This document shows, in pieces, positions 17,905-29,125 of a stretch of DNA of 55,103 nucleotides. The stretch's first letter is position 1. Every line of letters starts with the position of its first letter. The position numbers and the translations under genes are program-made. The notes beneath the pieces are model-generated. The model searched no databases. It was not told the DNA's origin and saw only the letters and a list, made by a program, of their open reading frames with translations. Origin of the DNA: Clostridiales bacterium (GTDB lineage: Bacteria; Bacillota; Clostridia; Peptostreptococcales; T1SED10-28); the NCBI GenBank assembly GCA_007120165.1, contig SKOH01000032.1, forward strand, positions 1 through 55,103, written 5' to 3'.

Positions 17905-18513
17905 TTATAGTTTTAACCCCATTTCCCTTCTTCTTAGAGCAAAACCAGCTATACCATAAAAGAGTAAAATGTTATCAAGAGTTTCTTCCTGATCCCCAGT
18001 AATATTATAGCCATCATCCTTTAACTTCTTTTTGATATTTTCTGTTATACTTTTAGATGCTTTATGTATGGTTTGAATCTCGGAACTATACAAGGATCTA
18101 TTAAATCTTAGAAAAAACATCAGCCATGTTTGGTAAAGTTTGTATTTATCATGACATTCCGTCGGCTTTAAAACTTCTTCGCAACGTATCATATGGGTGA
18201 TGTAGCCAATATAGATAAGTCCTTTAAATAACTTTTCTAATTCGAACATATCATTTTCATGAGGAAAATGATTGTTTTTTCTAAAATAGCCTCCAAACCG
18301 AGGGATTTCATCAGTGATTCGACCCACACCCCGAAGACTTACACTCTGTTGATCTGTTTCTGTTTTTAAAAATTTATTAATGCAATATTCCGAAACAGGG
18401 AAATTCCGGTTATTCTTCAGACTATTAATTTTACTATCTATGTTTATTATTTCGGTACTGGGTAAGACATTCTTAATCCCTGCAATACTCTCTCTCGTGA
18501 TCCATCTTTCCAC
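17905..18513 (-). CDS. Protein of unknown function, about 202 residues
   Basis: I do not recognise this protein. A GTG at 18513 is preceded by AAAGGAGG at ideal spacing and is the likely start; the frame is open 12 codons further but without a ribosome site. The product is soluble, with no signal peptide or clear membrane segment. The C-terminal half looks helical and rich in aromatic and charged residues (YQTWLMFFLRFNRS, IHKASKSITENIKKKLKDD). The middle has a short Gly/Arg/Phe-rich stretch (RGVGRITDEIPRFGGYF). It lies between the Fur-family gene and the selenoprotein. Function is unknown and no assignment is offered. Confidence 0.75.
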   Translation of the reverse strand: MERWITRESIAGIKNVLPSTEIINIDSKINSLKNNRNFPVSEYCINKFLKTETDQQSVSLRGVGRITDEIPRFGGYFRKNNHFPHENDMFELEKLFKGLIYIGYITHMIRCEEVLKPTECHDKYKLYQTWLMFFLRFNRSLYSSEIQTIHKASKSITENIKKKLKDDGYNITGDQEETLDNILLFYGIAGFALRRREMGLKL

Positions 18514-18649
18514 CGTTAACCTCCTTTCCTTGCTTACAATATTATACATATGATTGCTTAATCATTGTATTCTTTATTATTTTAATATGTAATTAACTCA
18601 CTTACAATATAAATTTGAAATATCTTTTGCATTGATCTTTTTATTTCCA

Positions 18650-18706: not shown

Positions 18707-18943
18707 TTATAAACTGTCGCTTATTCTTCGGACTACTTTTTCTTCATCGGGAAATTTAACATTTTCCTTTTTATTATTAAAAACCTCACTACCATCTACG
18801 GTAACCGTAAAAATTCCGCCACTACTTTGAATTAGCTCCACGGACGCTTCCTCAATTTCCGAATTGATTTTAGCTTCTAAACTAGAAGCTTTATCTACAT
18901 AACCTCAGGACCCGCAATAAGTGATTTTGATTTTTCTTGACAT
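18707..18943 (-). CDS. Rdx/SelT-SelW-SelH-type selenoprotein, in-frame UGA decoded as Sec
   Basis: A 78-residue gene read through an in-frame TGA at codon 13 (plus-strand 18905-18907). The start MSRKIKITYC is followed by CGSU, a CxxU redox motif after a beta strand, exactly where SelW/Rdx proteins carry CxxC or CxxU. The rest (GIFTVTVDGSEVFNNKKE and the helical end DEEKVVRRISDSL) matches the short thioredoxin-like Rdx fold, whose hallmark is a GxFxVxxDGxxVFxK-like stretch. The ATG follows AGGAGGG. A 7-bp hairpin 14 bases after the UGA is a good SECIS candidate, and selA, selB and tRNA-Sec lie nearby. Because of the UGA an ordinary gene caller would miss it. The redox substrate is unknown. Confidence 0.9.
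18872..18890 (-). promoter_or_regulatory. Candidate bacterial SECIS hairpin
   Basis: On the minus strand AGCTTCT and AGAAGCT form a perfect 7-bp stem with a 5-base loop AGTTT. It starts 14 bases after the UGA Sec codon, so the loop with its G-U lies about 21 bases downstream, within the range used by bacterial SelB. It lies inside the coding sequence, as bacterial SECIS elements do. Confidence 0.7.
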
Positions 18944-18986
18944 ATGAACCCTCCTATTAGCTATTGTTATAATAAATCTCTAACAT

Positions 18987-19014
18987 ATTATATAACCAAA
19001 TGATGTGCTTCCAA
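18987..19014 (-). promoter_or_regulatory. Promoter of the selenoprotein gene
   Basis: On the minus strand a -35 TTGGAA (19009-19014) and a -10 TATAAT (18987-18992) are separated by 16 bases, about 45 bases upstream of the start codon. It lies in the divergent gap shared with the pirin gene. Confidence 0.6.
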
Positions 19015-20257: not shown

Positions 20258-20689
20258 TTATTCCTTCTTTGTCTGCATCTGCTTTCGTACAATTTCATAG
20301 GGTGGTACAATCATTCCCTTATAGTTTTTCATTCTTCCCGTTAAATTTTGAATCTGTTCTGTGACGTAGGGCCATATATGGAAATTTAACTGATCCCGTA
20401 ATACACTGTCAGATATCTGCAGCTCCTCTATTCCTTTAAAGTAAAGAAAGGAATTGAGCAGTGCAGTAATTTCAAAGTGTCCCTCTACAATAAAATTGAC
20501 TTGGGTAATATATTTAATTTCTGATGTTTTATTTTTATTTCGCAAAATATTGCTGCTTATACGAATGGTTTGCTGCAGTTTTTTTTTCGAATATTCCTCT
20601 GCATTCTCTGTTTTTTTGAAGGAATAGATATCCTTTTTTAAAGAGATTTCTTCTAAAAAAACGCCCTTAACAATGATTTCATAATTCAT
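20258..20689 (-). CDS. SecB-like protein (probable chaperone fold)
   Basis: A 143-residue soluble protein with alternating beta strands (KYITQVNFIVEGHFEITALL) and a C-terminal helix. The stretch IWPYVTEQIQNLTGRMKNYK followed by VPPYEIV resembles the SecB pattern, in which an (L/F)xPYxxExIxxL helix is followed by a Gly loop and a PI(N/D)-like strand. Classical SecB is a proteobacterial export chaperone; SecB-like proteins elsewhere act with toxin-antitoxin systems or in unknown roles. No toxin gene is adjacent. The ATG follows AAAGGAG. The fold is inferred by eye and needs a profile search. Confidence 0.6.
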   Translation of the reverse strand: MNYEIIVKGVFLEEISLKKDIYSFKKTENAEEYSKKKLQQTIRISSNILRNKNKTSEIKYITQVNFIVEGHFEITALLNSFLYFKGIEELQISDSVLRDQLNFHIWPYVTEQIQNLTGRMKNYKGMIVPPYEIVRKQMQTKKE

Positions 20690-25636: not shown

Positions 25637-25733
25637 TGGCGGGAGTACATAGGAATCGAACCTACCCAAGAGGCTACTAACCCCTCGTACTGGTTTTGAA
25701 GACCAGAGGGCACACCAGTACCCATCTACTCCC
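25637..25733 (-). tRNA. selC: tRNA-Sec (anticodon UCA)
   Basis: A 97-nt tRNA. The anticodon arm CTGGT-CTTCAAA-ACCAG carries anticodon TCA. The D arm has the selenocysteine-type 6-bp stem (GGGTAC/GTGCCC, one G-U) with a 4-base loop. There is a long variable arm (GAGG/CCTC at its base), a T arm with TTCGATT, and an encoded CCA at 25637-25639. The acceptor arm pairs GGGAGTA with TACTCCC; the expected eighth pair is G opposite G. It sits 60 bases downstream of selB and upstream of a strong terminator, so it may be processed from the selAB transcript. Confidence 0.95.
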
Positions 25734-25792: not shown

Positions 25793-27697
25793 CTATTTGT
25801 TAATAACCCTCTGATCTCCTTCTCTACGGGATATGCCTTCACTATCGTATTTTTCCAACAATGCTACAGCAATCTTACGGTTGCTTCCCAGCATATCACG
25901 AAACTCTGCAATAGAAACTGACCCGTGACTTTGTAAATGCTCCACTAAAATAGCTTTAGCTTTTTCATAGTTTTCCCTAGTAAAATAAGTATCCTCTTCA
26001 ATCTTGACGAGCTCTGTGGTTATAAGCAATTGGAAAACCTGATGTACAGTTATCTCCATATGCTCTTTCATAATGGCTATTTCAATGTCTTTTCTTTTCG
26101 GAGGATTGAAAGGCTCTTGATTAATTTTCTCTATAATTGAAGTCTTAATATTTTCTTGTTCTTTTGTAAGAACTATTTCAAATTCCTTTAATGAAAGATA
26201 CTGTTCCTTAATAGTGATCAAACCTTCTTTTTCGAATAATTTATAAAGGTCATCGGTTACAGAAGTACGAAATTTTATCTCTAATTTATTTTTCAACTCT
26301 TCTTTTAATATCCCCGGTTGCAAGGGCTGTTCAAGATGAAACTGCTGTAATTTCTCTACTGTAAAAGACTTGAGATTTTGATAAAATTTACGGTGAATGT
26401 AACCATTTTTCCCTATTAAGAATATTCTATTTTGACTGTGTAATTTTTCGACGTTGCTTTGGATTATTTCCTTATCTTCAGAAAGTTTAACTGACAGAAA
26501 ATCGACACTAGGGATCTCAGCACTGTGCTTTTCAATCATTTTTTCCAAAACAAACACAAACTCCCCGGTTTCCTTTAGTTTTAGTTCCTCTAATACATCT
26601 AGATCGAACCTTCTATGTTTTTCCGGATAGGGGTCAATTACTAATAACCCTCCGATGGTTTCCATCGGTGAATATAATCTCACGATGATTTTATCTTTTT
26701 TCTTAATAGCTATCTGCTCTTCTAAGCGGATTTGTACATATACCTGGTCTTCTGCTTTAGCTTCTGCTTTGTCAATCAGTACTAATCTTCCCACAGCTTC
26801 ATTAGAATCACAATAAACTTTAACCCTGGTTCGATTTTCAACTACCCTTTGGTAATTTTTCAAAACCGTAAGCTTTCCATCAATCATCATCGTGGTATCC
26901 ATCGAACCCTTCTCTACTAATACATTGCCTCTATCGATTGTCTCTTTTTTTACATTGGAAATATTCAATGCAACCCGTTGCCCTGAAAAAGCTTCTTTTG
27001 CATCTTCTCCATAGGTTTGAACTGTACGAACTCTCACTTGTTGATGTTGTGGCAGTAGTTCTAACGTATCCTCAGGTTTTATATGCCCTTCTAGTAACGT
27101 ACCGGTAACCACAGTCCCAAACCCCTTAATTGAAAAAACCCTGTCTATTGGGAGCCGAACAGCCCGTTGATCTTTATCTTTTTTAATCCCTGAAGCTAAT
27201 CGATCAATTTCTTCGATTAGTTCAGGAATTCCTTCTTTACTAAGAGAGTCTACCGGCAAAATCTTAGCATGTTCTAGAAAAGTACCTTTTACGGCTTCCT
27301 TAACATCTTCTTGAACTAATTCTAAGAACTCCTCATCCACCATGGACTTCTTTGTAATAACCACAACCCCCACCTCAACTTCCAGGAGTGAAAGAATGTC
27401 CAAATGCTCGATGGTCTGTGGCATAACCCCTTCGTCAGCAGCCACGACAAACATAACGATATCCATTCCACCGACCCCAGCCAACATATGTTTTACGAAT
27501 TTTTCATGACCGGGAACATCGATAATACCTGCCCGCTTTTGGCTGGGCAGATCAAAGTAACTAAACCCTAACTCAATAGAGATCCCTCTTTTTTTCTCTT
27601 CCTTCAATCGGTCGGTATCCCGATTGGTTAAAGCTTTTATTAAGGTAGTCTTTCCATGATCGATATGTCCGGCGGTTCCAATGATGATATTTTCCAA
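25793..27697 (-). CDS. selB: Selenocysteine-specific elongation factor SelB
   Basis: A 634-residue GTPase that carries Sec-tRNA-Sec to UGA codons marked by a SECIS hairpin. The GTPase domain starts at the N-terminus with GTAGHIDHGKTTLI (G1), ISIELGF (G2) and DVPGHEKFVKHM (G3). EF-Tu-like domains II and III and an intermediate domain follow. The C-terminus has four winged-helix repeats that bind SECIS RNA (about 380-634). The G4 element reads TKKSMVD, with Ser where Asp is nearly always found. A TTG at 27697, six bases after AAGGAGAGG, gives the typical MENIIIGTAGH start; the TTG at 27715 lies within the ribosome site. selA ends 24 bases upstream. Confidence 0.96.
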   Translation of the reverse strand: MENIIIGTAGHIDHGKTTLIKALTNRDTDRLKEEKKRGISIELGFSYFDLPSQKRAGIIDVPGHEKFVKHMLAGVGGMDIVMFVVAADEGVMPQTIEHLDILSLLEVEVGVVVITKKSMVDEEFLELVQEDVKEAVKGTFLEHAKILPVDSLSKEGIPELIEEIDRLASGIKKDKDQRAVRLPIDRVFSIKGFGTVVTGTLLEGHIKPEDTLELLPQHQQVRVRTVQTYGEDAKEAFSGQRVALNISNVKKETIDRGNVLVEKGSMDTTMMIDGKLTVLKNYQRVVENRTRVKVYCDSNEAVGRLVLIDKAEAKAEDQVYVQIRLEEQIAIKKKDKIIVRLYSPMETIGGLLVIDPYPEKHRRFDLDVLEELKLKETGEFVFVLEKMIEKHSAEIPSVDFLSVKLSEDKEIIQSNVEKLHSQNRIFLIGKNGYIHRKFYQNLKSFTVEKLQQFHLEQPLQPGILKEELKNKLEIKFRTSVTDDLYKLFEKEGLITIKEQYLSLKEFEIVLTKEQENIKTSIIEKINQEPFNPPKRKDIEIAIMKEHMEITVHQVFQLLITTELVKIEEDTYFTRENYEKAKAILVEHLQSHGSVSIAEFRDMLGSNRKIAVALLEKYDSEGISRREGDQRVINK

Positions 27698-27721
27698 AAC
27701 AATCCTCTCCTTCAATAAATA

Positions 27722-29125
27722 CTAATCAATAATTATGTTCTTCAACGTAGTGGCAATGTATTCAAAGTCTCTTTCGTTAATTGTCCGAGGATCTAAAATT
27801 AACGTATTTTTATAAACGCGTGGTATGATTGGAATTTGGGCTTGTCTTAATAGTTTTTCCACAGTAGAAATGGCTGTATTTTGAAAATCTATAACCACGA
27901 CTTCTGTTTTCAGCTTCTCTAGCGGAAGAGAGCCTCCCCCCACTTGAGAATAGTCTTTTCGAGTAGTAACTACAATGGAGTTTTTGCATTGTTCCTCAAT
28001 TACACTCTTAAGACATTTAGCTTTTTTTACCAAGGTATCATAGCTAGCCGTTAGCATGGCTAAACTCAAAATTTTTTCGGTAATTGATTCTTCCTGTAAA
28101 TAATAGGACAATATAATTTCCAAGGCGGAGACGGTCATCTTATCAACCCTGAAGGCTCTTGTTAATGGGTTTTTCTTCATTTTATCGATCCATAGTTTTT
28201 TTCCTATGATAATACCCGCTTGGGGGCCTCCAAGAAGCTTGTCACCACTAAAGGTGATAATATCTGCTCCTGCCTTCACACTCTCCTGAACGGTGGGCTC
28301 ATGGGTTAGTCCATAGTCTTCCAGGTTAATCAGTACACCACTGCCTAAATCTTCAATCACAGGCAGCCCTTTTTCTTTACTGAGATCCACCAGCTCTTCT
28401 AATGACACCTCTTTAGTAAAACCGACAATTTTATAATTACTTGTATGCACCTTTAACAGAGCGCCGGTTTCCTCCCGGATACGGTCTTTATAATCCCATA
28501 AATGGGTTTTATTAGTTGTACCCACATCTACTAATACTGCTCCACTTTGTTCCATAACATCAGGAATCCGAAAAGCACCCCCGATTTCTACTAACTCTCC
28601 CCGGGAGACTATGACTTCCTTTCCCTTGGCAATACTGCTGAGAGCCAGGAGTACTGCTGCCGCGTTATTGTTCACCACTAAAGCATCTTCTGCCCCGGTT
28701 AAAAACTTTATTTTTTCTACAAGATGACTGTACCGGCTGCCTCTTTTACCCGTTGTTAGATCCATTTCTAAATTCGAATAATTGGAAAGAATCTTCCAAA
28801 ATTCTTCTTTCATTTCTTCTGAAAAAACGGCTCTTCCTAAATTGGTATGAAGAACGGTTCCGGTTCCATTAATTACTTGTTTTAAATTCATTTCAATGAA
28901 TTGACGAATCTTTTTTTTCAACATCATGATAACCTGTTGTTCGCTCAGTGGTATGATCTTTGAGTCATTTTGATTTAATACCCGGTTTCGATAGTCATTA
29001 ATAATCATTCGCAGCAAATGAGTCACAAGCTCTAAAGAAGATTTTTTAATAATATTCTGGGTTTCTTCCCTTTGTAACAATCGGTCAATCGATGGAATTT
29101 CTCTTAACAGCTGTTCTTTATTCAT
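27722..29125 (-). CDS. selA: L-seryl-tRNA(Sec) selenium transferase
   Basis: A 467-residue PLP enzyme that converts Ser-tRNA-Sec to Sec-tRNA-Sec with selenophosphate. The N-terminal tRNA-binding domain (about 1-70) precedes the core. The core holds INGTGTVLHTNLGRA, the VNNNAAAVLLAL phosphate region and the PLP lysine in FSGDKLLGGPQAG (Lys296, equivalent to the catalytic lysine of E. coli SelA). Length is normal. The ATG follows AGAGGTGAA. It leads the selA-selB-tRNA-Sec unit. selD, needed for selenophosphate, is not in the window and must lie elsewhere. Confidence 0.97.
   Translation of the reverse strand: MNKEQLLREIPSIDRLLQREETQNIIKKSSLELVTHLLRMIINDYRNRVLNQNDSKIIPLSEQQVIMMLKKKIRQFIEMNLKQVINGTGTVLHTNLGRAVFSEEMKEEFWKILSNYSNLEMDLTTGKRGSRYSHLVEKIKFLTGAEDALVVNNNAAAVLLALSSIAKGKEVIVSRGELVEIGGAFRIPDVMEQSGAVLVDVGTTNKTHLWDYKDRIREETGALLKVHTSNYKIVGFTKEVSLEELVDLSKEKGLPVIEDLGSGVLINLEDYGLTHEPTVQESVKAGADIITFSGDKLLGGPQAGIIIGKKLWIDKMKKNPLTRAFRVDKMTVSALEIILSYYLQEESITEKILSLAMLTASYDTLVKKAKCLKSVIEEQCKNSIVVTTRKDYSQVGGGSLPLEKLKTEVVVIDFQNTAISTVEKLLRQAQIPIIPRVYKNTLILDPRTINERDFEYIATTLKNIIID

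Follow-up and report, generated by a model that had tools for sequence, protein, structure and literature searches.

The gene at 18,707 to 18,943 on the minus strand of the window (the whole stretch of 55,103 nucleotides analysed here, a contig of a Clostridiales bacterium) very probably encodes a bacterial SelW-like selenoprotein of the Rdx family (CxxU), with predicted selenocysteine (Sec) insertion and a predicted redox role. Its UGA at codon 13 is, on comparison with its homologues, almost certainly read as selenocysteine, given that the TGA is conserved among relatives, that the constrained frame comes with a bacterial SECIS (bSECIS) hairpin, that sel genes lie in the same window and that SelD and GrdB of the same genome carry UGAs of their own.

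The interrupted frame and its product

The features at the locus are the following.

18707..18943, minus strand: selW-like (Rdx) selenoprotein gene, 78 codons plus TAA
18905..18907, minus strand: in-frame TGA, codon 13, predicted Sec of CGSU (from sequence and homologues)
18872..18890, minus strand: putative bSECIS hairpin AGCUUCUA-GUU-UAGAAGCU, 8 bp, 3-nt loop, -7.9 kcal/mol
18950..18956, minus strand: Shine-Dalgarno sequence AGGAGGG (from sequence)
18987..19014, minus strand: sigma-70-like promoter, TTGGAA-16-TATAAT, by match to the consensus only
18707..18841, minus strand: 44-aa GTG-start fragment of the standard-code ORF listing, not a separate gene

The frame starts at the ATG at 18943-18941, with AATAGGAGGGTTCAT directly upstream, and runs to a TAA that ends at 18707, a single TGA being its only interruption. 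With the UGA read through, the product is MSRKIKITYCGSUGYVDKASSLEAKINSEIEEASVELIQSSGGIFTVTVDGSEVFNNKKENVKFPDEEKVVRRISDSL, in which 12 codons precede the UGA, Sec is residue 13 and 65 codons follow. Re-reading the sequence reproduced to the base the frame and TGA position given in an earlier note on this DNA, and the AGGAGGG and the codon count agree with its description of a 12-codon start with a strong ribosome site joined to 65 further codons. The promoter match is to be read with the count of sigma-70-like matches in the region, which was no higher than in shuffled sequence. The table-11 listing of open reading frames of at least 40 aa retains at this locus the 44-aa GTG fragment alone, and a plain gene caller would therefore miss the gene, so that the earlier note was fair in expecting standard gene calling to lose it.

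The read-through product matches the Pfam Rdx family (PF10262) with E=4e-18 and 65.8 bits (cut-off 22.6) over positions 1-74 of 74, and TIGR02174 (CXXU_selWTH) with 55.9 bits, above the curated cut-off of 34.2; the search against Rdx/SelW families that had been proposed as a check thus gave two matches above cut-off. The best E-value among the NCBIfam models came from NF041051 (SelTWH_Campy, E=8e-21), whose curated cut-off of 88 bits is above the 74.1 bits obtained, which places the product outside that equivalog. The codons on either side of the TGA align as a single domain, and the CxxU motif follows the first strand as CGSU at residues 10-13, with C10 and position 13 invariant in our alignment (A2); both the Rdx profile and the homologues put the UGA at the second redox position of CxxC/CxxU, as had been proposed. 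It is the only Rdx gene in its genome.

An AlphaFold2 model of the read-through product (pLDDT 88.5; strand 3-10, helix 15-29) has the thioredoxin-like SelW fold. When it was compared with known structures by Foldseek, the Cys-type Rdx proteins 2obk, 2fa8 and 2oka matched with a TM of about 0.92 at 1.1-1.2 Å and about 26-31% identity, differing in that they have CxxC in alignments where the window protein has UGA/Sec in second place, while thioredoxins matched more weakly. A phmmer search of the PDB likewise returned SelW-related bacterial proteins and mouse selenoprotein W (2npb, E=0.0025), which shares the fold (TM 0.68) but is distant, with about 27% identity. The mammalian SELENOW is also a CxxU protein, and a 14-3-3 partner has been reported for it (PMC8508763), which is not expected for the window protein.

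Conservation of the TGA, the downstream codons and the hairpin

Of 198 related genomes, most of them from the same order, 40 contain a total of 41 Rdx genes, and exactly one in-frame TGA is present in every one of them; no Cys-form Rdx was seen in these 198 genomes. When 39 distinct Rdx sequences were read directly, all 39 showed CxxU-G[YF], a motif that the reading script itself required, a sequence being obtained from every fetched locus except one (L063). At the class level, one TGA was again found in five out of five Rdx genes, and a Cys form (CGPCG, locus L087) occurs only in one distant genome of the phylum-wide sample, outside the class. The earlier note had held that its reading would fall if no homologue carried Cys or Sec at residue 13, or if all homologues ended at the UGA; Sec occurs there in the relatives and Cys in L087, and the homologues extend past the UGA. 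A scan of contigs found two close relatives, corresponding to contigs of G004 and G003, and a tblastn search of plasmid records gave two weak enterobacterial matches only.

The codon comparison further indicates that the stretch downstream of the TGA is under purifying selection, since dN/dS past the TGA was 0.09/1.15 and 0.12/1.33 against two relatives of the genus, that is about 0.08, and the excess of synonymous change is confined to the selW-like frame, the other two frames being without it.

Eukaryotic SECIS elements have a different structure and are located in the 3′-UTR. The bacterial model, on the other hand, asks for a loop of 3-9 nt, a stem of 4-16 bp, a G as the first or second base of the loop, a spacing of 16-37 nt and an energy at or below -7.5 kcal/mol (PMC13188914), and the putative hairpin of the selW-like gene, with its loop of 3, stem of 8, spacing of 22 and -7.9 kcal/mol, agrees with it throughout: the stem begins 14 bases past the UGA and the GUU loop 22 nt past it. 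Over 39 homologues the mean energy of the best SECIS-like stem was -4.35 kcal/mol, compared with -1.37 ± 0.28 kcal/mol in synonymous-codon shuffles (300 replicates, ± being the standard deviation; the homologues are related, so that their independence is overstated), and the protein sequence alone is therefore no sufficient explanation of the stem. In the near clade, 89% of cells are paired and three of the eight pairs have changed on both sides; shifting the partner by 1-3 columns lowers pairing to 28-43%. More distant clades have other codons in the 3′ arm, and many keep a small hairpin with an early loop G at 17-20 nt. A strict scan allowing no stem mismatch found no hairpin in nine of the 39 homologues, among them two members of the genus, G004 and G001, whose stems contain mismatches. 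Folding of the window's own 66 nt against dinucleotide shuffles gave z=-0.47, which is not unusual; the signal for this predicted hairpin is one of position and comparison and does not come from the folding of those 66 nt.

Sec-decoding genes, neighbourhood and the weighing of other readings

Three genes for Sec decoding are found in the same window, 7-10 kb from the selW-like gene.

25637..25733, minus strand: selC, tRNA-Sec, anticodon TCA (ARAGORN; Rfam RF01852, 74.6 bits, E=1.6e-13)
25793..27715, minus strand: selB, selenocysteine-specific elongation factor (SelB winged-helix domains: PF09107, 8.5e-17; PF09106, 1.5e-8)
27722..29125, minus strand: selA, L-seryl-tRNA(Sec) selenium transferase (PF03841, 1.5e-157)

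The genome also has selD, on another contig (L079, contig C72), which completes the set of selA, selB, selC and selD. The listed selD frame has a TGA in frame at its codon 27 (KSAGUAGK), so that SelD is probably itself a selenoprotein. Other selenoproteins were sought family by family, and GrdB (L083, contig C224) has an in-frame UGA (TSTUGTCTRCG) and adjoins the C-terminal part of GrdA, which points to the presence of glycine reductase selenoproteins as well. Across the relatives, Rdx genes occur in 39 of the 152 genomes with a strong tRNA-Sec match (E < 1e-10) and in one of the 46 without (Fisher p=1e-4, on genome counts made by eye). The exception is G004, a genome of 79% completeness whose contig breaks off right before the position at which synteny would place the sel locus.

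The order ruvB-ruvA-fur-hyp-Rdx-pirin-...-selB-selA is common to G001 and G003, and to G004 as far as its contig reaches. This synteny was seen within the genus only: in G005, of the same family, Rdx is missing from the contig that unites the sel locus with ruvBA-fur and is found on a different one. Given this arrangement, the neighbourhood of the gene looks positional and is not taken as evidence of shared function, and we rejected a functional tie to the divergently transcribed pirin or to the Fur-family regulator. Other features of the region were observed in passing. A 143-aa protein (20258-20689, minus strand) has 82-88% identity across the genus, higher than the conservation of the Rdx protein, and a 214-aa protein encoded immediately downstream of the selW-like gene (17905-18549, minus strand) has 48-52%, both being without a Pfam match; a 6S RNA is located at 1166-1343 on the minus strand (Rfam RF00013, 112.9 bits).

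The TGA could in principle be a true stop, in which case the locus would be an Rdx pseudogene in decay, or else a leader of 12 codons with an independent 44-aa ORF behind it that begins at the GTG at 18841, and the standard-code listing, which yields the 44-aa fragment only, would fit this. However, the TGA is kept at the same motif in all 41 Rdx genes of the 40 relatives, both its sides align as one domain with the dN/dS of about 0.08 past it, and codon, frame and hairpin have all been retained, unlike in a decayed gene, so that we rejected the true stop, to which we assign a negligible probability. The UGA might alternatively be read as tryptophan or through near-cognate suppression, in a genome-wide change of the code. 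Nothing specific favours this, beyond the fact that any in-frame UGA could in principle stand for Trp, and it is hardly credible considering that TGA terminates other genes of the window (six of the 51 ORFs tallied), that a tRNA-Sec with a UCA anticodon, SelA and SelB are encoded there, and that the UGA coincides with the redox position (CxxC/CxxU) of Rdx proteins and precedes a hairpin conforming to the SECIS model; it was therefore rejected too. The identification as an Rdx/SelW-type protein of 78 residues, made in the earlier note, is thus borne out by family profile, fold, homologues with TGA, bSECIS and nearby sel genes.

If the UGA is read as Sec, as it almost certainly is, Sec-tRNA(Sec) would be made by SelA and SelD and carried by SelB, which would dock at the hairpin 22 nt downstream of the UGA, so that selenocysteine is inserted as residue 13. 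The resulting 78-residue thioredoxin-like protein would present Cys10-Gly-Ser-Sec13 just before its first helix, and it would most likely act as a small thiol/selenol oxidoreductase, cycling via a Cys-Sec selenenylsulfide; both Sec insertion and redox cycling of the SelW-like product are what we infer from knowledge of the family. A defined pathway role, for instance in arsenical or metalloid thiol chemistry, instead of that of a general redox carrier, appears improbable. It would draw on fusions of UGA-containing Rdx with DUF2703 that have as neighbours either genes for an ArsR-family regulator and SBF-family permease or one for an ArsA-type ATPase, and on the presence of DUF2703 in a Rhodococcus ars cluster (PMC6514093). 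However, the neighbours of the selW-like gene are the pirin, the Fur-family regulator, ruvAB and the sel genes, with no recognised ars gene in its vicinity, and the DUF2703 fusions are a distant branch.

Rdx-DUF2703 fusions and the place of the gene in its family

These fusions were encountered in other lineages of the phylum. An Rdx with an in-frame UGA and a hairpin behind it is fused to DUF2703 in L084 (G579), L085:2028-2867 (G726), L089:2053-2967 (G887) and L090 (G750), and frames of similar length, judged by length alone, occur in G774 and G663. Downstream of the L085 fusion lie a gene of the ArsR family and one for a permease of the SBF/ACR3 type, the latter being present at L089 as well. 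The Sec-Rdx-DUF2703 protein is a candidate selenoprotein of arsenic-resistance clusters; the paper that placed DUF2703 in the Rhodococcus ars cluster did so without mention of Rdx or selenium (PMC6514093). A minus-strand Rdx-DUF2703 ORF in L086 (G712) has CGA (Arg) at the Sec position, one base from TGA, and keeps a hairpin of the SECIS kind behind it, and close by are a methyltransferase gene and a fragment of an ArsA-type ATPase; from its sequence, this looks like a loss of Sec. The TGA at the C-terminal end of the fusions was considered as a second Sec and rejected, since a further stop lies no more than two codons on, and the hairpin past this TGA has a T run behind it, as a terminator would.

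The earlier note had called bacterial SelW-like selenoproteins few. In the Sargasso Sea set, in fact, this family had more members than any other selenoprotein family, with 48 genes (PMC1088965, 2005), and a listing of 2006 gave it 10 sequences, one of them from Alkaliphilus metalliredigens, with very few or no Cys homologues among Sec-decoding organisms (PMC1794560). Given these descriptions from 2005-2006, the family is well described and not rare, and the novelty of the gene was overstated; it is a somewhat divergent addition to a described family. It resembles the other bacterial SelW-like selenoproteins in its single Rdx domain, its CxxU, a bacterial SECIS just behind the UGA, an anaerobic clostridial host with Sec decoding and the scarcity or absence of Cys homologues among relatives that decode Sec. 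It differs only in sequence, the clade of the window having KASSLEAK/NNKKE as opposed to the KAxxLAE/SKK of the commoner type in the order, and in its location near selA-selB-selC within the genus.

With all 41 genes in the Sec form and no Cys form in the 198 genomes, selenium may be obligatory for these proteins and no mere upgrade. That the Rdx of the order is perhaps selenoprotein-only, with selenium perhaps obligatory, and that the DUF2703 fusions hint at arsenical or metalloid-thiol chemistry, is a picture to which we give little probability. Beyond the correction of a gene and a new clade little is changed: the analysis rescues a gene that plain gene finding would lose, and a selenoprotein family already known gains a divergent clade. 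A lineage in which no Cys form was seen, with a genus in which the sel genes are 7-10 kb away, could suit the search for the substrate of the family.
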